The notes beneath the pieces are model-generated. The model saw only the letters and a list, made by a program, of their open reading frames with translations. It searched no databases and had not been told where the DNA came from. Below are positions 6,882 through 39,720 of a DNA stretch of 40,683 nt, piece after piece (position 1 is the stretch's first letter; each line of letters starts with the position of its first letter). The translations under genes were made by a program, and so were the position numbers. Source of the DNA: Candidatus Levyibacteriota bacterium (GTDB lineage: Bacteria; Patescibacteriota; Microgenomatia; Levybacterales; UBA12049); NCBI GenBank assembly GCA_017991775.1, contig JAGOPV010000007.1, positions 1 through 40,683 of the forward strand, given 5' to 3'.

Positions 6882-7994
6882 TTATTTTATTTTGATTTCG
6901 TTCTTGGCGAGGAATGCTGCCAGTAGGGTAGTGATTGGGACTGCTAAGACAAGTCCAATACTGCCAGCTATAGTTCTGACGATTTCCTCAGCTAATAGTT
7001 CACTGTTAAAGATGACCCACCAGGGATACTGCTGGCTTTGCAGACTCATGACGATGAAGATAAAGATGGCTATTCCTGCACCTGCATATGCTAGAACAAG
7101 TGTATTCACGAGGGAGGCGATATGCTCTCTTCCTACGATCATCCCGCGTCTGTAGAGCTCCTTCATAGAATAGGACGGATTGGCATCTGATAGCTCAGCA
7201 ACAGTTGTAGATTGAGTCGTGGTCGTATCATCAAGTACGCCAAGAGACCCAATGATAATTCCGCCAAGAAGAAGCCCGTGGAGGTTGATGGGAATTTGAG
7301 AGCCAAGCATGAGATTATATGCATCTTCACTTCCAAGTCCAGAAAGTGAACTAAGTTTTACTGCGATGATAGCAATTACGCCGGTTAGAAAAAGACTGAT
7401 GGCTGTTGCTATGACAGCGATAGTTGTTCTTTGGTTATAGCCATGGGCTAAATAGATTGTTGTAATCATAATGATGATAGATCCGATCACGCTAATAGTG
7501 AGCGGATCAGCTCCTTTAAGAATTTGCGGTACGATAAATCCAGCAATGACAATAAGGCTGATAATAAGACCTAAGAGTGACCCAAGACCTTTTTTCCCAG
7601 TCATAAGGATAACAAGAATGAAGAAAAGTGATGCAATAAAAAGAAGAGAAGGAATCCTGTAGATATCAGAGATGGTGTAGGTAGACTTATTGTTGCTGAG
7701 CAGTTTGCTTAGGATGACAGTATCGTTCTTTGAGAGCCGTTGGCTCTCGGTGATAACTCTTACGCCTCCGTATTCAAGAGTTAGAATTTTATTTCTCTCT
7801 GCACCATCTAGGATCTGTACTGTGACTTTTTGATAAGGATTCTTTTTACCACCGATATTCTTTACCTCATTCTTAATAATCGATGTTACTTTCGCCTTCG
7901 AAAATTCTTGAGTGCTTTGCGATTGAGCCAGAGTAGATTGGGGAAAGAGCGCTGCAATAAAAACGAGCAAGAATGTCTTGATGAGGATATTCAC
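6882..7994 (-). CDS. YibE/F family membrane protein
   Basis: A 370-residue protein with an N-terminal signal or anchor (LLVFIAALFPQSTLA), an extracytoplasmic beta-rich domain (about 28-110, with the VQILDGAERNKIL segment) and about seven membrane helices. The motif HGLLLGGIIIGSLGVLDDTTTTQ, followed by ELSDANPSYSMKELYRRGMIVGREHI, is diagnostic of YibE/F proteins. Their role is not established, though transport has been suggested. The start is GTG at 7994: a TATACT box lies 6 nt upstream and the overlapping ATG is out of frame, so the mRNA is probably leaderless. It is divergent from the Fur-ZIP pair across a shared metal-operator-like palindrome, hinting at a link to metal or stress response. 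Confidence 0.88.
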   Translation of the reverse strand: MNILIKTFLLVFIAALFPQSTLAQSQSTQEFSKAKVTSIIKNEVKNIGGKKNPYQKVTVQILDGAERNKILTLEYGGVRVITESQRLSKNDTVILSKLLSNNKSTYTISDIYRIPSLLFIASLFFILVILMTGKKGLGSLLGLIISLIVIAGFIVPQILKGADPLTISVIGSIIIMITTIYLAHGYNQRTTIAVIATAISLFLTGVIAIIAVKLSSLSGLGSEDAYNLMLGSQIPINLHGLLLGGIIIGSLGVLDDTTTTQSTTVAELSDANPSYSMKELYRRGMIVGREHIASLVNTLVLAYAGAGIAIFIFIVMSLQSQQYPWWVIFNSELLAEEIVRTIAGSIGLVLAVPITTLLAAFLAKNEIKIK

Positions 7995-18374: not shown

Positions 18375-18398
18375 GAGAGCTCTTTAATAAGTGAAGAG
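18375..18398 (+). promoter_or_regulatory. boxA-like element and 5' arm of the 23S processing stem
   Basis: GCTCTTTAATAA matches the rRNA antitermination boxA (GCTCTTTAACAA). The same 24 nt pair with 21907-21930 downstream of 23S with two adjacent mismatches, forming the stem that RNase III would cut. A second hairpin (ATTCCGAATTCGCC with GGCGAATCGGAAT) lies at about 18400-18430. Confidence 0.75.
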
Positions 18399-18469: not shown

Positions 18470-21817
<3,348 letters not shown>

Positions 21818-30244: not shown

Positions 30245-31891
30245 CTAATAGTTAATATATCTGCCCCGTAACTCGGCAAATTGAGCGATATAGTGAGGCG
30301 GGAGTATAATGTCCATCGGCGTGCCCCAGGCAATCACCCACGCTCCTTTTACGACAGTGCTCTCTGTTATGCGTTTTCCGTCTGTCAGGCCAGTTTTGGC
30401 CATGACCTCACGGACCGTATTTAAGCAGAGCTCTTTATCTTTGTTGCAGTCAATACCTTCGGGATATATTGTTGCAGCCTTGGCAGTAAAGATGCGAGTT
30501 GAAGTAGATGGCTTGAGATATTCATTTGTGAGAAGGTCGATATCTTCTTGAGGTATGTATCCACAAGCATCCTTCACTTTCTGGACATCAATTTTGAAGA
30601 CATAGGCTTTCTTGCAGCGATTCTGGGAGAAATACACAGCAGTCTCAAGTGATCCGCCATTCTCAACTCCAAGTGTTCTTTCAATAAATATCTCAGGTGT
30701 CGGGTTATAGAGACCAGGTGCAACTGTAAGCATTGCTTTGGCATATGGTGAGTGCCCGAACGAGTCGTTGTAATTAGGGAATAGGAGTCCGTTAAATATC
30801 AAAATCGGGATTTGGATCACCAATAAAAGGACAAGTAGCTGATCTTTCCAGCGACTCTTTGCCACAAAGCTCGTACCTAGGAAAAGTAGGAAAGGAATAA
30901 GAAAGAGTGAATATCTGTTTGGACCATAGCCAGGGGCACCATGATTCCAATTCGTGATAGTGGTGTACAGCACTGACGTGCAAGCACAGATAAGAAGAAA
31001 AGGGAGAAGGCCTTTCTTTTTATAGTGAATGATGCCAACTATCCCAAAGATGAAGAGAAGGGGAGCATAGAAAAAGAGGCCAAAGTTGGGGTCAAAGAAA
31101 AGCTCGAGTGGCTTTTGCATCGTAAAGTTGGAGAGGCCAAAGCCAGCCAGTTTGGCAAAAGCTGTCGGACTATTAAAAAGGAAGAAGTAGTAGATATTTG
31201 GGACAGCTAGAAAAAGAGCCAGGGCAAGATTCTTTTTCTGTAAGCCATGCTTTTTGTACCCTGTTACAGTTTGATTGAGGAGCACTGCTAGGGGAATAAG
31301 GAGAAGTGGCTGGCTCTGCCATGAGGCAATGATCATGAAGAGAATTCCTAGCGTAGAGCGGCCATTTTTGAGGAGGAATATCCCAGCTAAAAGCAGGCAG
31401 ATTATCAGAAGTTCTGGTCCTGGCCAAGTAATGTAGAAAAACACAGGGCTAACAAGAAGTAATAATAGAAAAGGTATCTTCTCTGATTCTTGCTTAAAAC
31501 CATTTTTTAGGCAAAAAAGCCCGGTTAGAAATAGAATGAGTAAATTTAAAAGTGAAAAGCTCAAGAGCTCATTTAAGTGAAAGATATGCAATGCAGTTCT
31601 AATCGGCATTGCCAAAATAGAGTAGAGTGGGAAATGAGTTGGATAGCGCAAGTTATTTCTGCCCTCGAGATAATACTCGCCATTCTCTTGGTAGATAGGG
31701 CCGATAATTTTTTTGATGACAGCCTTGTCGCTTTCTTTGAGATCAAGCGTCGCGTGTGAAGAGAGAGTCTGAGTGATTCCTAGATACTCCACGATATCCC
31801 CGCCAATTTTTGGTGGGTGAGTCAAGATTAAAACAGCACAAATAAAGCTAAAAAGACTAAGTCCAATAAGTGCTAGCGAATTTTTGCCCAT
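30245..31891 (-). CDS. GT-C type membrane glycosyltransferase-like protein
   Basis: A 548-residue protein with about ten membrane helices in residues 5-385 and a soluble C-terminal domain of about 160 residues. The first outside loop has PPKIGGDIVEYLGITQTL, an acidic motif placed like the catalytic Asp of GT39/GT87-type enzymes, and TNWNHGAPGYGPNRYSLFLIPF resembles conserved loops of this superfamily. The Cys-rich C-terminus (NRCKKAYVFKI, VKDACGYIP, DCNKDKELCLNT) may form disulfides, fitting the genome's Dsb system. The start overlaps the upstream 1,256-residue gene by 19 nt, indicating translational coupling. The sugar donor is unknown. Confidence 0.82.
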   Translation of the reverse strand: MGKNSLALIGLSLFSFICAVLILTHPPKIGGDIVEYLGITQTLSSHATLDLKESDKAVIKKIIGPIYQENGEYYLEGRNNLRYPTHFPLYSILAMPIRTALHIFHLNELLSFSLLNLLILFLTGLFCLKNGFKQESEKIPFLLLLLVSPVFFYITWPGPELLIICLLLAGIFLLKNGRSTLGILFMIIASWQSQPLLLIPLAVLLNQTVTGYKKHGLQKKNLALALFLAVPNIYYFFLFNSPTAFAKLAGFGLSNFTMQKPLELFFDPNFGLFFYAPLLFIFGIVGIIHYKKKGLLPFLLICACTSVLYTTITNWNHGAPGYGPNRYSLFLIPFLLFLGTSFVAKSRWKDQLLVLLLVIQIPILIFNGLLFPNYNDSFGHSPYAKAMLTVAPGLYNPTPEIFIERTLGVENGGSLETAVYFSQNRCKKAYVFKIDVQKVKDACGYIPQEDIDLLTNEYLKPSTSTRIFTAKAATIYPEGIDCNKDKELCLNTVREVMAKTGLTDGKRITESTVVKGAWVIAWGTPMDIILPPHYIAQFAELRGRYINY

Positions 31892-34800
31892 ACTTCCTTT
31901 CTATAAGAATATAACAAAATGCACCCAGCCAGGCCAAAGATAAGTAGTCCTGCGTATTCTAATAGTTGAGGAAGATAGATGATGATGACCTCGCCCTCGC
32001 TATTTGGCGAAAGTATCCAGCCATTCTCCCAGTTATTGACCTTTGTGTGCGGGAGTGGGGTGGCAAAAAGGAAAGGTGCGAGTTTATTTACCGTGGTTGG
32101 CTTTTTGAGATGATACGCCATCCAGCCCCCGTTGTAGCCTTGTGAAAGCGTGATAAAGGTAGTTGTCTTACTTGGGGTCACCTCATATCTACTTAGAGAC
32201 TTTTTCACTGCTGTGATAGTCGTAGGCGTTGCACGATTTATTCTGACGCCCTGTCTGACAAGTGAAATCTGCGTGAGGAACTCGTAAGGGATAGGCGTTG
32301 CACTGAGTGAGACGAGCTCGTTGCTGCTAAGTGAGTCATTGTATGAATTGCTCCCCAACAGAAATGAGAGGCCATTATCGTAAGGGTAGAGAGGGGGGAG
32401 AATGAAATAGGAAACCTTCTCACTTTTAGCGTTTGGAGAGTATGTATAGATATGGCTTCTAAACTCTTGGTTGGTGAAGACGTTTAGGACAAAAGGAAAG
32501 CCGCTCCTATGTGTCGTTGTTGTCTTGAGGAGATAGCCAACTTGTGTTGAAAGATTGTTAGCGCGAAGGAGGATGTATGATGACGCATCACTAGCATTCG
32601 CTTGAAGTCTTTTTGGATCCGACTTCACCTTCAGCGAGAAAGGTCCAGGGAGTGAGCTATCATAATTAAGAGCTGATTCTTTGAAGCGATTTGCCTCGAT
32701 TGGATCTGAGTATGTACCCGCATCTTTTGACATCAGGATTCGCGCAGTAAGTTTGCCTCCTTTTTCAACCTGAATTTCATGAACGGAAGCTGCACCCTGA
32801 AGTTGAGTAACAGCAAAATTAGCTCCCCCAAGGTATGGGTAGGATGTTAGGTGAATCTGACTATACTCAATCTTCTTTGCCCTATTTCTATCTTCATCTG
32901 TCTGAGCCTCAAGAATCGCATGGAAATAAAGCGTATCATTTGGTCTATTGGCTTCAAAATAGTCAGTAAAGAGAGCGGGGGTTCTGGAGAAGCCTTTTAA
33001 TTTAAGATCTTTTTTATTGAGACATCCATTGATGTTTTGACTATAGATGCAGTACTGGGGGAATTCATCACTCGTCGATTTATAGAGAAAAGAGACGGCG
33101 ACAAGCGACGAATCAGTCAGACTAAGTGGCGTTTTATAGACGGTACAATTAGCAGTGTCATATGCTTTAAGCGATAGATTGTCAGCGGTGATATCAGTTG
33201 AGATGCTGGCTCCAGACGCCCTCTCTCCACAGTATTTTGCTTTGTTAAAGAGTGCCGTAGGTAAGTCCTGGGTGAGAGGTGAATCTGCGCGATAAAGCCT
33301 GAGACTGTTAGCATTATTAGCATTGGTTAGAGAGCTTGAGCCAAGTGAGATAAATTCGCCTGGAAGATCTGAGAGCGCGAAATAGTCATTGTTGTTGATA
33401 CTTAGAATATATCTATGCTGGGGTGAAGGTTCGTTGCCTAGTGCAACTTCGATGCTCTTGTCTGCTGGAGCGATCTCTTGATCGCCGATAAGAAATGACG
33501 GCTGAATTAGCTTCATTCGTACTGTTACTTCACCGTTATCCTCTTTTGCTTCAATTGAGACTGGGATTTGCGCGCTGTCTTTACCAAGAGATGGAAGTGC
33601 TAGGGTGTAATCGCCTTTGGGGATTGGCACGCTAATGTTGGTAAAGTCGCCATCCTCCTTTACAGTAAAGGATCTTTCAGTGGTAGTTCTTTTCGTAAAT
33701 AGTGCGTCAAATGGCATAAGGGTATCTGGAGTATTGCTGTTCTGATACATGCCGTTATTGAGAAAGAGTTGATCATTATCGATCGTTTGACCATTCATTA
33801 TGGAAGTCGAAGGTGGAGTAGTACTGCCCAATATATGCGCGACCGGTTTGCGTGCTAGATTAACTTTATATACTCTAATAGAATCTCCGAAGGTAGCATC
33901 AAGAGCGACTTTAGGGTTGTTCCTCAAGAGATCTTCTTGGTTAATTGCAAAGCGAAGAGAGTTGATGTTGTCTGCAAAAAGGAGACTGCTGTCATAGAGA
34001 ACATAGCCTACTTGGTATTTTTCTAAAATCGCATTGAACATCTCGAGATCTCTCTTCTGTAGCGCTAAAGAGAGCTCCCAGTAGTAATTCTCATTCTCCT
34101 TACTCCAGACGTCAAATGCTCGATCAAGGATCGGCTGCTCTATGCCGTACCAAATGAAGCCAGAGCCGCGAAGTCCCCATTTGTAGTAGTACCATCCCCA
34201 GAATCCGCCTTGAGGAAGATTCATGATGCGCTCATTCTTGTCTTGAAGTTCAAAATACTTAAAAAGGGAGAAATATTCTTGAGGGATCGCAACTCGCATT
34301 GTGGGCGAGATGAATTTGCCCTGAAATACAGGAAATGCTGTTAGAAGAATGAGGCCTATTCCTAGAAGTGGCGCGACAAGGGGCGAGAAGTTCTTTTTCT
34401 CAAGCCAACTCATGGCATATGCAGTAAAAAGTCCCAGTCCAACAGCAAAGAGAAAGACAATCGGTACGATGAATTTGGTGAATGGATTTCTAAAGATTTG
34501 ATTTACGAGGGGTAGGGCGCGGAGAAGTGAGTTGATGATAGATATGCCAAAGGTGTTGGAGAGGAAAATGATAAGACAAACGCCAAGGAGCGCCAAGAGT
34601 GGGAGTCTATATTTTTTAGTTATAAGAAGACCAGTCATGGATCCTAGGAAGAGTGCTATGCCTGCAATATAAACAAAGATTGTTCCATAATGAGCTCTCC
34701 ATGCAGACATCATGTACTCGAATTTACCCGTAGCATCGTTAAAGTCAAAGAAGTCGAAGTAGAATTCTTTGAGGAAAACCAGATTGTCGATCGTGCCTCT

Positions 34801-35643
34801 GTTCTTGTTCATTTGAAAGAACTTCTCAGTCGCCATTTGATTTTGGATTGCATCCTGCGTGACCGAGAGGTTGGTCAGCACAAAGTAGAGGTTGGGCAGT
34901 AGCCAGAAGGCATTGACGACAAAAATGGAAATGCATACAGTGACGATTTGCCTTAGATACGCTTTTGACTTTTTAGCGTAGAATAGTCCGCCAAGCAGTG
35001 CGGCAATTGAGATGATATATACCAAAAATATTGTCTGAACATATGCCTGGGGAGTAGCCAGGATGTTAATGCCAATAAAATAGAGTAGGTGTCTTTTTGA
35101 TGAAGTTTTGAGATAGAGAAGAAGGCTAGCAACTTCCCAGGGGAAGAATCCCCAGAAGGTGCTGTATGGCTCAAAGGGAACATAGAAGTACTGGATCGTG
35201 CCGAGGTTAAGAAGATAAAAGATGCTACCAGTAAGGCCTGCGAACTGTCGCTGCATCTTGGTGGTTCCTGGTTGGATGATGTGTGAGATAAGGAAATAGA
35301 TGCCACTCATGCCTACAAAGAGCATTAAGAAGTGATAGAAGTAACGCATGAATGAGGCAGGCATGAAGTAGCTTAAGATCCACAGGAAGACTTGGCGAAC
35401 AAGATCCGAAGCGTGAGCCATGCCGCCAAGAAGGCCAACACCCTGGTATTCTTGCCAGACGGCGTCAAGTGAACGTTGGATATTGAGGCCAAAGTTAAAT
35501 TCTGGATGGAGATTGTCCCAGCCTGTGAGGTATGTGCCTTTTGTGTAGTTGGTGGCAGCGACAATAATTGTTAGGCCTAATATTGCAAGATAAGGCCACC
35601 AGTTGGAAAGGTGATTAAGGACTCTAGGAAAATATTTCTTCAT
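31873..35643 (-). CDS. giant GT-C-like membrane protein with extracytoplasmic beta domain
   Basis: A 1,256-residue protein. Residues 15-445 contain about twelve membrane helices; the first outside loop reads GTYLTGWDNLHPEFNFG, with acidic residues as in GT-C transferases. Residues 450-1220 are outside the membrane and mostly beta. A final helix (LEYAGLLIFGLAGCILLYSY) and a basic tail anchor the C-terminus. The layout recalls AftD/DUF3367-like arabinofuranosyltransferases, but I cannot confirm that family. It overlaps the GT4 gene upstream by 20 nt and the GT-C gene downstream by 19 nt, so all three are coupled. A role in assembling surface polysaccharide or glycoprotein is the likely inference. 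Confidence 0.8.
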   Translation of the reverse strand: MKKYFPRVLNHLSNWWPYLAILGLTIIVAATNYTKGTYLTGWDNLHPEFNFGLNIQRSLDAVWQEYQGVGLLGGMAHASDLVRQVFLWILSYFMPASFMRYFYHFLMLFVGMSGIYFLISHIIQPGTTKMQRQFAGLTGSIFYLLNLGTIQYFYVPFEPYSTFWGFFPWEVASLLLYLKTSSKRHLLYFIGINILATPQAYVQTIFLVYIISIAALLGGLFYAKKSKAYLRQIVTVCISIFVVNAFWLLPNLYFVLTNLSVTQDAIQNQMATEKFFQMNKNRGTIDNLVFLKEFYFDFFDFNDATGKFEYMMSAWRAHYGTIFVYIAGIALFLGSMTGLLITKKYRLPLLALLGVCLIIFLSNTFGISIINSLLRALPLVNQIFRNPFTKFIVPIVFLFAVGLGLFTAYAMSWLEKKNFSPLVAPLLGIGLILLTAFPVFQGKFISPTMRVAIPQEYFSLFKYFELQDKNERIMNLPQGGFWGWYYYKWGLRGSGFIWYGIEQPILDRAFDVWSKENENYYWELSLALQKRDLEMFNAILEKYQVGYVLYDSSLLFADNINSLRFAINQEDLLRNNPKVALDATFGDSIRVYKVNLARKPVAHILGSTTPPSTSIMNGQTIDNDQLFLNNGMYQNSNTPDTLMPFDALFTKRTTTERSFTVKEDGDFTNISVPIPKGDYTLALPSLGKDSAQIPVSIEAKEDNGEVTVRMKLIQPSFLIGDQEIAPADKSIEVALGNEPSPQHRYILSINNNDYFALSDLPGEFISLGSSSLTNANNANSLRLYRADSPLTQDLPTALFNKAKYCGERASGASISTDITADNLSLKAYDTANCTVYKTPLSLTDSSLVAVSFLYKSTSDEFPQYCIYSQNINGCLNKKDLKLKGFSRTPALFTDYFEANRPNDTLYFHAILEAQTDEDRNRAKKIEYSQIHLTSYPYLGGANFAVTQLQGAASVHEIQVEKGGKLTARILMSKDAGTYSDPIEANRFKESALNYDSSLPGPFSLKVKSDPKRLQANASDASSYILLRANNLSTQVGYLLKTTTTHRSGFPFVLNVFTNQEFRSHIYTYSPNAKSEKVSYFILPPLYPYDNGLSFLLGSNSYNDSLSSNELVSLSATPIPYEFLTQISLVRQGVRINRATPTTITAVKKSLSRYEVTPSKTTTFITLSQGYNGGWMAYHLKKPTTVNKLAPFLFATPLPHTKVNNWENGWILSPNSEGEVIIIYLPQLLEYAGLLIFGLAGCILLYSYRKEVWAKIR

Positions 35644-36853
35644 AATACCTACTTCCTATTGTACCCCAAGAGCGTCTTCTCTTGAGTGTTTTTTCAAGTG
35701 AGGCGAGAGAATCTTTAAGCACCCTGTTCTTTAAAAGAGAAGTCACACTATCATTGAGATGTTCGGGGTCGAAAAGGAGAGACGTTTTATCGATGCCTTC
35801 TTTTTCGACGAGATCTTTAATGTCTCTTGTTCTAAAAAGAGGAGAGAGTGCTTTTGAGAGCAGGAAAGGTTTTTGTGCGCTGATCACAAAAGAGAGTGGC
35901 CCTGATGACGACATAAATGTTCTGTATGGCAGGATGCAGATATCACTTGCTGCAAAATAGTGAGGGATATCCTGCTCCTCAACAAATCCAGTGATAAGAG
36001 CACCAGTTCTGTCGGCTTTTTCTCGAACTTCTTTAAGATATTTCTTATAAAAAGGCTTTTTTACGTGATTTGGATTGGGTCCTCCTGCGATGATCAGAAG
36101 TGGCCTTTTGTCTTCAGGAATTTTTTCATAGGCATCAAGGAGGCTGTCTGTCCCTTTGTACCATGCAAGATACCCAAAATAGAGGAGAATTGGCCTGTCG
36201 CTTGAGATTTTAAGTTTTTTTCTGGCATCTTTTTGATTAAGAAAGTCGAGGTCTTCAACGCCATGTGGTATTACGACGACCTTTTTTGCGTCTGTGATCT
36301 TTGCTAATTCATCTTTAAGATAGGAGTCAAAAACAATTGTCTTGTCGGTCATAGTGAGAATGATCTGATAAAAAAGTCTAAGGAGGAATGTGTAGAGAGC
36401 GGTAAGCGGACTATGCTCTGGCAGATTGAGTTGTCCGTGGACATCGCTAGCTGAAGTTATTACCTGATGAAGAACTGTAGTGATTTGCATGCCTTTTATT
36501 TTTGCGGCGATAAGGAAAAGTGGAGTTAGGAGGAGTTGGAGTGGTCCACCAAACATGGCTAGCTCAAGCTCCAGCAAGAGCGTTTTGTCATTTGAAAATA
36601 GAATATGTTGGAGAATTGAGAACTGGCTTGAGATACTATTTCTTTTCCAGATTCTTTTGACACTGATCTGACCATCTTGATAGTTAGGGGAGGATGGTAA
36701 TTTCTCAGCGAGAACTGTGATTGAGAGGTCAGGATCTGATTTTACTAGGGAGGTGAGAGTGTTCTTGGTATACGTAGCAACCCCGACAACAGCCTTGTGG
36801 TGGGTGATGCCCTCTGGGGGATAGCTGCTTATGACAAGAAGACTACGTTTCAT
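35624..36853 (-). CDS. GT4-family glycosyltransferase (GT-B fold)
   Basis: A 409-residue cytosolic or membrane-associated transferase. The N-terminal domain starts with LLVISSYPPEGITHHKAVVGVATYTKNT, the usual GT4 glycine-rich entry loop; the linker VVVIPHGVEDLDF and the C-terminal Rossmann domain (PILLYFGYLAWYKGTDSLLDAYE, LLIIAGGP) are typical. The usual E(x7)E motif region reads FAASDICILPYRTFMSSSGPLSFVISAQKP, where the first Glu is not obvious. A hydrophobic stretch at 105-125 (PLQLLLTPLFLIAAKIKG) may tie it to the membrane. It lies 9 nt after the GT2 gene and overlaps the giant GT-C gene. Confidence 0.92.
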   Translation of the reverse strand: MKRSLLVISSYPPEGITHHKAVVGVATYTKNTLTSLVKSDPDLSITVLAEKLPSSPNYQDGQISVKRIWKRNSISSQFSILQHILFSNDKTLLLELELAMFGGPLQLLLTPLFLIAAKIKGMQITTVLHQVITSASDVHGQLNLPEHSPLTALYTFLLRLFYQIILTMTDKTIVFDSYLKDELAKITDAKKVVVIPHGVEDLDFLNQKDARKKLKISSDRPILLYFGYLAWYKGTDSLLDAYEKIPEDKRPLLIIAGGPNPNHVKKPFYKKYLKEVREKADRTGALITGFVEEQDIPHYFAASDICILPYRTFMSSSGPLSFVISAQKPFLLSKALSPLFRTRDIKDLVEKEGIDKTSLLFDPEHLNDSVTSLLKNRVLKDSLASLEKTLKRRRSWGTIGSRYYEEIFS

Positions 36854-36862
36854 AGTACTTCT

Positions 36863-37654
36863 TTATTTTATCAGGTTGGAAGAGCTTGAGTGAAGAGCAG
36901 TTCTTGGCTGCAAAACTGCTGAAAAATATCGTTTGAGGCGGTGATTCCAGATGATGAGATCAAGTTCAATAAATGTGCTCATAATCGCTGGAATAAGTCG
37001 TACCTTCGTTCTTTCATCGTTCGCCCATAACACAGGAATCTCCTGTATTTTAAGTGAAGATCTAGCAGCAAGGTAGACGATCTCAGCATCATATCCCCAG
37101 CGATTGATAATACTGTCTGAAAAGATAAGATTTTTCGCAGACTTTGAAAATGCTTTAAATCCACAAGTAAAATCAGTTACATTGCTTGAGATAGCGATCT
37201 GAGTGATGAGCGTAAAGCCTTTGCCCATAAGCTCTCTGTGAAGTGGCTGGTGCTTGGTCACTGTAGAGTGGCCATTCTTGCGTGTACCAATGATAACTGG
37301 GACATTATTCTTGAGTGCTGGCATGAATTTTTTTAATTCTGTCAGTGGTGTGGACATATCTGCGTCAAAAAAGAGCGCATAGTCACCAGATGCCTGGAGC
37401 ATGCCTTGCTTGAGAGCAAAACCCTTACCCATATTCAGGGAATAGCTAAGCAGTTTTACAGTATATTTTTTACTAAGAGGGGATTTCTCGATAAGCGTTG
37501 CAGTCTTATCTGTTGAGCCGTCATTAACAAAGATGATTTCTTTGAGTATTAGGCCACTAGGAATAGAAAGCTCTTTAAGAGCCTTAAATGTGAGGTCAAT
37601 TCTATCCTGCTCATTATAAACAGGGATGACAAATGATAGTGATATATTTTTCAT
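36863..37654 (-). CDS. GT2-family glycosyltransferase, polyprenyl-phosphate sugar synthase type
   Basis: A 263-residue GT-A enzyme. It begins LSFVIPVYNEQDRIDLTFKAL, has IIFVNDGSTDKT, the MGKGFALKQGM helix and a clean DxD in ALFFDADMSTP. NRWGYDAEIVYLA and the ALG5/DPM1-like layout suggest it charges a polyprenyl phosphate with a sugar from a nucleotide donor. The product would be the donor for the GT-C enzymes further down the operon, so the cluster makes sense as a unit. It is the first gene of the operon; a hairpin cluster occupies the 160 nt upstream. An AGGAGA sits 14 nt before the ATG, rather far for a Shine-Dalgarno. Confidence 0.93.
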   Translation of the reverse strand: MKNISLSFVIPVYNEQDRIDLTFKALKELSIPSGLILKEIIFVNDGSTDKTATLIEKSPLSKKYTVKLLSYSLNMGKGFALKQGMLQASGDYALFFDADMSTPLTELKKFMPALKNNVPVIIGTRKNGHSTVTKHQPLHRELMGKGFTLITQIAISSNVTDFTCGFKAFSKSAKNLIFSDSIINRWGYDAEIVYLAARSSLKIQEIPVLWANDERTKVRLIPAIMSTFIELDLIIWNHRLKRYFSAVLQPRTALHSSSSNLIK

Positions 37655-37813: not shown

Positions 37814-38443
37814 TTATTGGCTGAAGCCAAGTGCGTCTCGCCAAGGGCGTGGAGGAAACATCCTCCAATCGCCTGGGGCAAGATCGACTCCGTCTGCAAC
37901 CTGGATGCCATTTGGGCCGCCTTGAGCCTCCCATCCTGCAGGCAGTTTCATGCCATTAGGAAGGTAGACTTTGACTGCACCGAACTTGTCTTGAACAGTT
38001 GCTGACTGGAGAGACCCGCCGTTTTCCATGACGGTTTTCTTCACAAGTGCAACCCATTCGGCCTGGCTCGTGGGAACGTCCGCTGTTTGGGTGGAGGAAG
38101 ATCTCGAATTTTCATTCGGATCCTCTTCCGCTGCTGCAGCAGTTGGTTCGGGAGTAGAGATTGGATCGGCTTCGCCACCTGCGAGACCTGCCGCCTGTGT
38201 TTGCAGGGCCTCAATTGTGGCGTCTGTCGGATTGATGGTCGGCTCGACCGTGCCCATGAGAACTGCGATTTGTGTTTGCAGGGCCTCGATGGTGGCTTGC
38301 GCCGGATCGATGATCTCAGTAGCTGTGATAGCAGCGCCTGCTTGTGCCTTTCGATCGTTGATCTCTGCGCCTCTGTCTTGGAGGGCAGCAGCGATCAAAA
38401 TTGCTCCGACGATGATGACGAGAAGAATGGCTGCGCGTTGCAT
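37814..38443 (-). CDS. membrane-anchored protein with repeated ATIEALQTQ unit and shared C-terminal domain
   Basis: A 209-residue protein. A hydrophobic N-terminus (AAILLVIIVGAILIAAAL) anchors or exports it. Two tandem repeats follow at about 46-86: DPAQATIEALQTQIAVL and PTDATIEALQTQAAGL, separated by a Pro/Thr spacer; they are likely short coiled-coil units. A Ser/Glu/Pro linker leads to the C-terminal domain (about 125-209) with LPAGWEAQGG, DLAPGDWRMFPP and WRDAL, which matches the C-terminus of the secreted protein at 39742-40551. The start has a strong Shine-Dalgarno (AAAGGAG). GC-rich codons differ from the adjacent glycosyltransferase genes. No named family is recognised. Confidence 0.78.
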   Translation of the reverse strand: MQRAAILLVIIVGAILIAAALQDRGAEINDRKAQAGAAITATEIIDPAQATIEALQTQIAVLMGTVEPTINPTDATIEALQTQAAGLAGGEADPISTPEPTAAAAEEDPNENSRSSSTQTADVPTSQAEWVALVKKTVMENGGSLQSATVQDKFGAVKVYLPNGMKLPAGWEAQGGPNGIQVADGVDLAPGDWRMFPPRPWRDALGFSQ

Positions 38444-38490: not shown

Positions 38491-39030
38491 CTACCAATCA
38501 GCTTTCCATATTCGTCTCACGATTCCGGGCTTTTTGGGCTCGGGCTGTTCGCGATGCGTGCGTGATATCCTCCGTTGAACGAGGTCATTCTTCGCAATGC
38601 GCACCTCGAAAGTTCCCTCCGGCTTTGCAGCTTTGACCTGTGCTTCAGGTGGCGGGGTGTGCCCAATGACTGTACCATCTTCCAAGCTTGAAGCCACTTC
38701 TCGAAACGCCTTGTTCCGATCGAAGTTGATTCCAAGCGAAAGGAGTCTGGCCTCCGCTTCCTCAGGATACATTCCCGTCAGGTCCGGCATGGAGACCATG
38801 CCACTGTCAACGGTGATCGTAGGCTGATTGAGGCGAAAACTGACAGGCAGCCCTTCTTCGGCTTGAGTGCCGCCTCGGGGAACCTGAGCCGAAATTCCTT
38901 CATCTCGATCATTGTCAGTTGTAACATTGACTGCGCCGAGTGTGAATCCATGCTCCTCGAGCACATCCTCCGCCTTTCGACGAGTGACAATGCCAAGAGC
39001 GCGAAGGTTTGGAACTTCTCTTTTTGCCAT
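38491..39030 (-). CDS. protein with two PASTA-like domains
   Basis: A 179-residue protein with two PASTA-like repeats: residues 5-68 (VPNLRALGIVTRRKAEDVLE, then QVPRGGTQAEEGLPVSFRL) and 79-148 (MPDLTGMYPEEAEARLLSLG, then HTPPPEAQVKAAKPEGTFEVRI). PASTA domains usually sit outside the cell on penicillin-binding proteins and Ser/Thr kinases and bind peptidoglycan fragments. Here there is no signal peptide or membrane helix, so either export is by another route or the domains have an internal role. The C-terminus is basic (QRRISRTHREQPEPKKP). An AAGGAAG precedes the ATG, and 47 nt separate it from the anchored protein gene, so they are likely co-transcribed. The 5' region is very long and structured. 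Confidence 0.8.
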   Translation of the reverse strand: MAKREVPNLRALGIVTRRKAEDVLEEHGFTLGAVNVTTDNDRDEGISAQVPRGGTQAEEGLPVSFRLNQPTITVDSGMVSMPDLTGMYPEEAEARLLSLGINFDRNKAFREVASSLEDGTVIGHTPPPEAQVKAAKPEGTFEVRIAKNDLVQRRISRTHREQPEPKKPGIVRRIWKADW

Positions 39031-39116: not shown

Positions 39117-39181
39117 GCGCGTGAGCGCTTAATAAAAGGGGATGAGGGCACCTATGTAACACTTTCTAACTTAGTCCTCAG

Positions 39182-39263
39182 GTGCCGACAACACATACGA
39201 TGTTTTTGCGTCTTATCATCCCTGCCCAAGATAATAAAACAACATCGTATGCTGTGACGGCAC
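39182..39263. repeat. long imperfect inverted repeat in the PASTA gene leader
   Basis: Arms of 23 nt (39182-39204 and 39241-39263) match at 19 positions, including GTGCCG/CGGCAC and CATACGATGTT/AACATCGTATG. The 36-nt loop has an inner TTATC/GATAA stem. As RNA it would form one long hairpin on either strand. Confidence 0.75.
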
Positions 39264-39301
39264 TTGAAGTAAGTTTTTCCTGTATACCTTGTTAATGTGC
39301 T

Positions 39302-39329
39302 CGTATTTAAGGCTTTAGCCCTAAATACG
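39302..39329. repeat. inverted repeat next to the attenuator T-run
   Basis: CGTATTTA and GGC pair with GCC and TAAATACG around TTTA. On the minus strand it directly follows the six-T run of the leader terminator. Confidence 0.75.
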
Positions 39330-39440
39330 AAAAAACCCGACTTGTGGTCGGGGAGAATAGTTGGGCAAATGATCTTTATGATAGGCAAGTTCCAACTATT
39401 TTCTCCGACCCTCACTTACGTGAGATAAGAATCACAAAGT
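39330..39440 (-). ncRNA. structured leader or small RNA with mutually exclusive stems (attenuator or riboswitch-like)
   Basis: The minus-strand transcript begins about 39440. It has a small hairpin CTCAC-GTAA-GTGAG (39424-39411). Then 39410-39392 pairs over 19 bp, with two G-U pairs, with 39364-39346. The last bases of that second arm (CCCGAC) can instead pair with GTCGGG at 39341-39336, which is followed at once by six T: an intrinsic terminator. The two stems cannot coexist. It may control the PASTA and anchored-protein genes 300 nt downstream, or end as a small RNA of about 110 nt. No known riboswitch class is recognised. Confidence 0.65.
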
Positions 39441-39446
39441 TGGTGT

Positions 39447-39475
39447 AGTGTAACACATACTATAAGACTTGTCAA
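39447..39475 (-). promoter_or_regulatory. promoter of the structured leader RNA
   Basis: Minus strand: TTGACA (39475-39470), a 17-nt spacer, TACACT (39452-39447). Confidence 0.75.
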
Positions 39476-39540: not shown

Positions 39541-39720
39541 CGCTCTGCCGATAGCGTTACTAGCTTCGGAGAGACTCATCAGGCCGCCTATGGCGACGAA
39601 CGAATCTAGGGGCCAAAAGGCCGGGGTGGCACCTAGATCCGTTCATGAGGAAGATGCGCTAATGCATCACCGACAAACTGGAATTCAGGGTCCGGGTCCC
39701 ATTCTAACAGTTGTCAGCAA
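39541..39720 (-). other. densely structured non-coding region with three-way junction
   Basis: The 260 nt after the secreted protein gene have no plausible ORF. On the minus strand, CTCAT (39650-39646) pairs with ATGAG (39579-39575). Inside lie GAACG/CGTTC and ATCTAGG/CCTAGAT with a GGCC/GGCC tip, and a second hairpin CGCC-ATA-GGCG. Downstream CTCTCCGAAGC pairs with GCTATCGGCAGAG; upstream are GATGC/GCATC and GGG/CCC hairpins. Likely a structured RNA or 3' UTR element; unassigned. Confidence 0.55.

Follow-up and report, generated by a model that had tools for sequence, protein, structure and literature searches.

A structured regulatory element is encoded on the minus strand of a single 40,683-base contig (here termed 'the window'; the whole of contig G000:C6 in a 0.81-Mb, 90.7% complete assembly from an ultrasmall Levyibacteriota bacterium), where it precedes an operon for surface proteins and glycosyltransferases approximately 9 kb in length. 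Its two competing helices both covary, it is kept at one operon in two families of Patescibacteria, and it is followed in every known copy by a boxA or a probable boxA variant. On balance, the element is probably a conserved transcription attenuator, intercistronic or leader depending on the genome, that is coupled to boxA processive antitermination; its conservation suggests that it serves the operon that follows as a switch, or at the least as a brake.

Architecture of the element

Transcription would begin at a sigma-70-type promoter (39447-39475, minus strand, as are all features of the element and operon), in which TTGACA (39475-39470) and TACACT (39452-39447) are separated by 17 nt with TG at the extended -10 position; this promoter had been correctly placed by an earlier reading made from the sequence alone. 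A motif that it shares with other promoters, TTGACANNTCYTATA, recurs in both genomes of the genus before very different leaders, and was set aside as a promoter feature only. Downstream lie a 5' hairpin (CTCAC-GTAA-GTGAG, 39411-39424) and then a long stem, the putative antiterminator, consisting of a 5' arm, GGTCGGAGAAAATAGTTGG (39392-39410), an apical loop of 27 nt (39365-39391) and a 3' arm, CCAACTATTCTCCCCGACC (39346-39364). The sequence-only reading located this stem accurately and described it as 19 base pairs in length; on the transcribed strand it comprises 17 pairs and two A.C mismatches in 19 positions. If the plus strand were read instead, the A.C mismatches would become G.U pairs, and that reading was rejected: the promoter, the T run and differences from the closest relative that preserve G.U pairing all favour the minus strand.

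The last bases of the 3' arm are common to an intrinsic terminator (39330-39352), all parts of which are present as first described: CCCGAC (39352-39347) within the second arm, a CACAA loop, GTCGGG (39341-39336) and six T (39335-39330). Its first base, C39352, is the one that stands opposite A39404 in a mismatch of the long stem. The computed energies are -8.9 kcal/mol for the terminator hairpin and -33.9 kcal/mol for the 121-nt transcript, the latter equalled by none of 200 dinucleotide shuffles (z -3.5). The terminator takes the 3' strand of the lower stem, and the two folds overlap across its lower six to seven pairs only, so that the earlier description of mutually exclusive stems holds for the lower stem; the upper stem is mostly still formed in the predicted terminator fold, both in the window and in its closest relative.

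The remainder of the leader begins immediately after the T run with a second short hairpin, TCGTATTTAGGGCT/AGCCTTAAATACGA (39301-39330), which is not conserved, and continues with a boxA-like sequence, GCACATTAACA (39290-39300), a block GGTATACAGG (39279-39288) and a large imperfect hairpin (39178-39267). The boxA-like sequence, which lies 30 nt downstream of the terminator and had gone unmentioned in the sequence-only reading, differs at two positions from the canonical GYTCTTTAANA.

Homologues and genomic setting

Seven other Patescibacteria genomes, from two families, carry homologues, which together with the window gives eight sequences in all. The same genus yielded one good match, G001 (E 1.4e-6), which keeps the promoter in the same place (TTGACA-N17-TATACT), the stem with both A.C mismatches, the terminator and the T run; its 5' hairpin (CTCCG/CGGAG) differs by two pairs changed on both sides with pairing kept, and downstream the two glycosyltransferase genes of the operon, GT2 (59% identical) and GT1 (44%), keep their order. 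Genome-wide searches with a model of the two same-genus copies gave no convincing match in other genera, and the sole weak match, in G265, looked unrelated. The GT1 gene served to locate the same operon elsewhere, leading to two genomes of a second genus, g2 (G002 and G056), in which the spacer after a gene for a DUF11-like surface protein contains GGTTGGAGAGAGAT...ATCTCTCCTCAATCGTAAAAGATTGAGATTTTG; when run unfiltered over these loci, the model of the window's genus scored the g2 spots at 17.0 and 15.6 bits, ranking them directly after the model's own sequences and their reverse complements. Three other GT1-bearing genera (G020, G012 and G032) have no spacer of this kind containing the element.

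A model built from these four sequences was then run over 82 genomes of the order, and returned one further clear copy, the fifth (in G024, E 3.8e-5), together with six weak matches with E values of 0.01-0.04. Three of the six were accepted: one in G047, and two (G061 and G065) in another family, f2. These three are individually weak (E 0.02-0.03 per genome) and were accepted on context, each lying 11-28 nt after the stop codon of a DUF11-like gene and being followed by a boxA 50-143 nt past the end of the model match; neither the other three weak matches nor still weaker ones showed a boxA. All four added copies have a DUF11-like gene immediately before them and a boxA 77-165 nt past the mismatch C. 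An exact stem pattern, applied to 84,980 genomes, recovered only G001 and a chance match without paired arms in a Cryomorphaceae contig, and no match in viral contigs.

Every homologue context that could be read has the same arrangement: a DUF11-like surface protein, the element, small secreted proteins and glycosyltransferases. The element begins 11-95 nt after the DUF11-like stop codon in five relatives and is not a 5' leader there; the copies of the window's genus are served by a promoter of their own and do not adjoin the DUF11-like gene. The operon of the window starts with a PASTA-domain protein of 179 amino acids (38491-39030; Pfam), whose counterpart in G001 is also a PASTA protein, and proceeds through a small secreted or membrane protein of 209 amino acids (37814-38443), the GT2 gene (36863-37654), the group-1 glycosyltransferase gene GT1 (35624-36853) and a large membrane protein of 1256 amino acids (31873-35643). 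The gene order of the two glycosyltransferases is conserved in relatives, and the operon in G061 and G065 goes on to a GT2 gene (fused to GT1 in G065) and a relative of the large membrane protein. In G047 and G024 the context is interrupted by contig ends, and G024 shows the end of its DUF11-like gene only. The operon probably builds the cell surface by which these bacteria meet their hosts.

Gene content at the head of the operon varies. Among the relatives read, a PASTA gene occupies that position in the window's genus only, and unrelated secreted proteins stand at its place in other genera. In G024 (L108, G024:C11), two small genes that by eye, from their translations, have the look of a RelBE-type toxin-antitoxin pair are inserted between the boxA and the next secreted-protein gene.

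Conservation and covariation of the two helices

An alignment of relatives, which the sequence-only reading had proposed as a check on its terminator/antiterminator design, revealed covariation in both competing helices between g2 and the window's genus. In the alignment of the window, G001, G002 and G056, six pairs of the long stem carry changes on both sides, with 93% of all cells paired, falling to 35-53% when the strands are slid by 1-3 columns; in the terminator helix three pairs are changed on both sides and 92% of cells are paired, versus 11-43% when slid, figures that are to be read as counts and not as probabilities given few and related sequences. The strand that the two helices share changes from CCGACC to TCAATC in g2, and both of its partner strands change to match. 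The computed antiterminator and terminator energies of the four best sequences are -30.9/-29.1, -38.8/-36.2, -24.5/-23.9 and -21.5/-22.6 kcal/mol, so that the gap between the two folds is at most 2.6 kcal/mol in all four.

All eight stems can be placed in one register, hand-anchored on a conserved GGAG and CUCC/CUGCC, in which 81% of cells are paired (30-51% when slid). An A.C mismatch is found at stem position 7 in all eight, and it is there that the 5' arm of the terminator starts. The six copies that lack the 5' hairpin have a four-pair extension at the base of the stem, which varies with pairing kept. The terminator, recognized as a hairpin and T-rich tail whose start lies no more than one base from the C opposite A7, is present in six of the eight: it is absent from both f2 sequences, has interrupted stems and weak T runs in G047 and G024, and in G001 is off by one base in register with one mismatch. 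Both helices are clear in one register in four of the eight sequences. Terminator overlap is common, not universal, so the comparison suggests that the stem predates the terminator or is the more widespread of the two; the f2 stems that lack a terminator imply that the stem has some role besides antitermination.

boxA downstream of the element

A boxA or probable variant follows the element in all eight homologues, 52-176 nt downstream; it is canonical in six of them and differs by two bases in the two of the window's genus. The six match G[CT]TCTTTRACA, taking the forms GCTCTTTAACA, GCTCTTTGACA, GTTCTTTGACA or GTTCTTTAACA at 75-165 nt past the mismatch C, and align with the GCACATTAACA that the window and G001 carry. 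GTATAC follows the boxA in all relatives except G047, and the window has GCACATTAACAAGGTATACAGG where relatives carry boxA and GTATAC; among 108 loci, the exact pattern of boxA with GTATAC occurs at these syntenic spots only. A canonical boxA is also present ahead of the 23S gene of the window (18379-18389). Across both genomes of the genus, the sequence GCACATTAAY is present at 16 sites (L050-L065, together with 39290-39300 of the window), as compared to four for a reversed control, and 10 of the 16 were judged by eye to lie in untranslated leaders, in most cases 15-60 nt after a promoter. It is therefore probable that this variant boxA is used at many operons of the genus. A Rho-like protein, recognized by eye, is encoded beside a DUF11-like gene on contig C2.

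Proposed mechanism and alternative explanations

In the proposed mechanism, the upper stem of the antiterminator would form first, and two outcomes could then ensue: (i) the six pairs of the lower stem close, and polymerase reads through; or (ii) the 3' arm of the terminator displaces the 5' arm of the lower stem from the shared strand, and polymerase is halted at the T run. Any polymerase that gets beyond the terminator would presumably load NusB/S10 at boxA, and might thereby resist Rho and pausing across the long, partly untranslated leader and the operon. Because boxA lies downstream of the terminator, it cannot itself cause read-through there. We infer that the choice of fold is regulated, and that an RNA-binding protein, NusA or polymerase speed is a likelier effector than a small molecule: the lack of conservation outside the stem makes an aptamer unlikely, and a protein that reads the stem around its constant A.C mismatch, or kinetics set by NusA or polymerase speed, fits better. 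A more ambitious form of this model is improbable: a taxon-specific regulatory RNA of Microgenomates that would form a new class, in which a factor would bind the A.C-mismatch stem, hold or release the terminator, and hand polymerase to the boxA complex, such that surface-protein and glycan expression would be set by two serial antitermination steps. Confidence in the switch reading itself is kept modest mainly because terminator overlap is not universal.

The main rival, which is possible if somewhat doubtful, holds that the stem is a substrate for RNase III or a protector of 3' ends that separates the surface-protein mRNA from that of the operon, and that a leaky terminator merely imposes a fixed polarity, with nothing being sensed. 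That all eight homologues have the stem and only six the terminator is in keeping with such a role, as are the closeness of the stem to a stop codon in the five relatives described above and its length of more than 20 pairs once the base extension is counted. A processing stem does not, however, by itself account for the way in which the 5' arm and the 3' arm of the terminator both track changes in the shared strand, or for the near-equal energies of the two folds. Nor does the element adjoin the DUF11-like gene in the window's genus, where a separate promoter precedes it. The suggestion that promoter and terminator bracket a stand-alone small RNA of approximately 110 nt, which describes the conserved block in the window's genus well enough, is highly improbable, since in g2, g24, g47 and f2 the element follows a DUF11-like gene with no comparable promoter noted, and the boxA and operon downstream are conserved together with it.

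The sequence-only reading had tentatively assigned sensing to the 27-nt loop and a 5' hairpin, and the long leader with its terminator/antiterminator layout would indeed suit a ligand-binding riboswitch of a new class. That assignment was not supported on comparison, and such a riboswitch is quite unlikely: the apical loop ranges from a few nucleotides to more than 60 nt with no conserved sequence, the 5' hairpin is absent in other genera, the G024 element consists of hardly anything but the stem (its loop has 6 nt, and its likely -10 box practically adjoins the stem), and no conserved ligand-binding aptamer was found among the eight homologues. The same reading had recognized no known class, and an Rfam covariance search of the window and homologues bears this out, having returned, at gathering and at relaxed thresholds, only weak microRNA, sRNA and leader models and nothing credible. 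Attenuation by a leader peptide appears very remote; some short TTG frames with an upstream GGAG do exist in the window, G001 and G024, but they vary in length and sequence, and their presence is not kept in g2 and f2. Least credible of all is a chance inverted repeat beside an ordinary terminator. Terminators are not rare in the window, which has five; yet a competing upstream stem of at least 16 of 19 positions is found at one of them only, that of the element (17 of 19), Markov simulations yield an expectation of 0.017 such terminators per window and none at 17, conservation and covariation speak against it, and a chance origin of the stem is already refuted by eight syntenic homologues.

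Relation to known systems

The attenuator favoured here resembles trp-type, PyrR, RAT/LicT and transcriptional-riboswitch attenuators in that one strand can pair in either of two structures of nearly equal energy, an upstream stem or a terminator. It differs from them in having no recognizable aptamer, leader peptide or known protein site, in being mostly intercistronic and in being followed by boxA. The antitermination of rrn operons, the suhB 5' UTR and CRISPR leaders by boxA and Nus factors employs, as the present element may, an untranslated boxA, of consensus GYTCTTTAANA, before long transcripts (Baniulyte et al., PMC5725501; boxA in CRISPR leaders is also mentioned in a passage of PMC7862264 that cites Stringer et al.), whereas here boxA comes after the stem and terminator, in a surface-glycan operon, and takes a variant form in the window's genus. 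LoaP with its leader hairpin, RfaH/ops and the EAR of Bacillales eps operons are antitermination elements found in the leaders of lengthy biosynthetic operons, many of them for polysaccharides (PMC12691694 and references therein); the hairpin described here is unrelated to theirs in sequence, and no LoaP- or RfaH-like paralogue was seen, the genome (90.7% complete) showing a single NusG-domain match.

A search of open-access literature on antitermination in Patescibacteria and on riboswitches of the Candidate Phyla Radiation brought up no account of such an element, and a perspective from 2024 terms cell-cycle regulation in these bacteria 'virtually unknown' (PMC11665869). Attenuator and boxA are each of a known kind, and what appears to be new is that this radiation combines them at this operon; the same loci place boxA outside rRNA operons in the radiation.

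Additional observations

A second pair of leaders, preceded by a similar promoter, is found in the two genomes of the genus (L033, G000:C2:2301, and L036, G001:C5:26332, both minus strand). In each, TCTGCC with GGCAGA or CAGAAGG forms a possible antiterminator and a terminator with T6-T7 lies within about 100 nt; beyond it come a large hairpin, GGTACCAGCTTCTGCATG...CATGCAGCAGCTGGTA, and a small-protein gene (its product apparently secreted in G000). The pair may represent a further attenuator that works in the same way. The 23S rRNA gene of the window (18471-21816) spans 3,346 bases as against a model of 2,925 positions, the approximately 400 extra bases representing an insertion or intron; it is flanked by tRNA-Ala(TGC) and 5S genes, yet the window yielded no 16S gene. 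Finally, a short palindromic motif, CATCAGGYCGCCTAWGGCGAC, is repeated in intergenic DNA of both genomes, including positions 39571-39616 of the window and positions 7601-7629 and 13820-13864 of L023.
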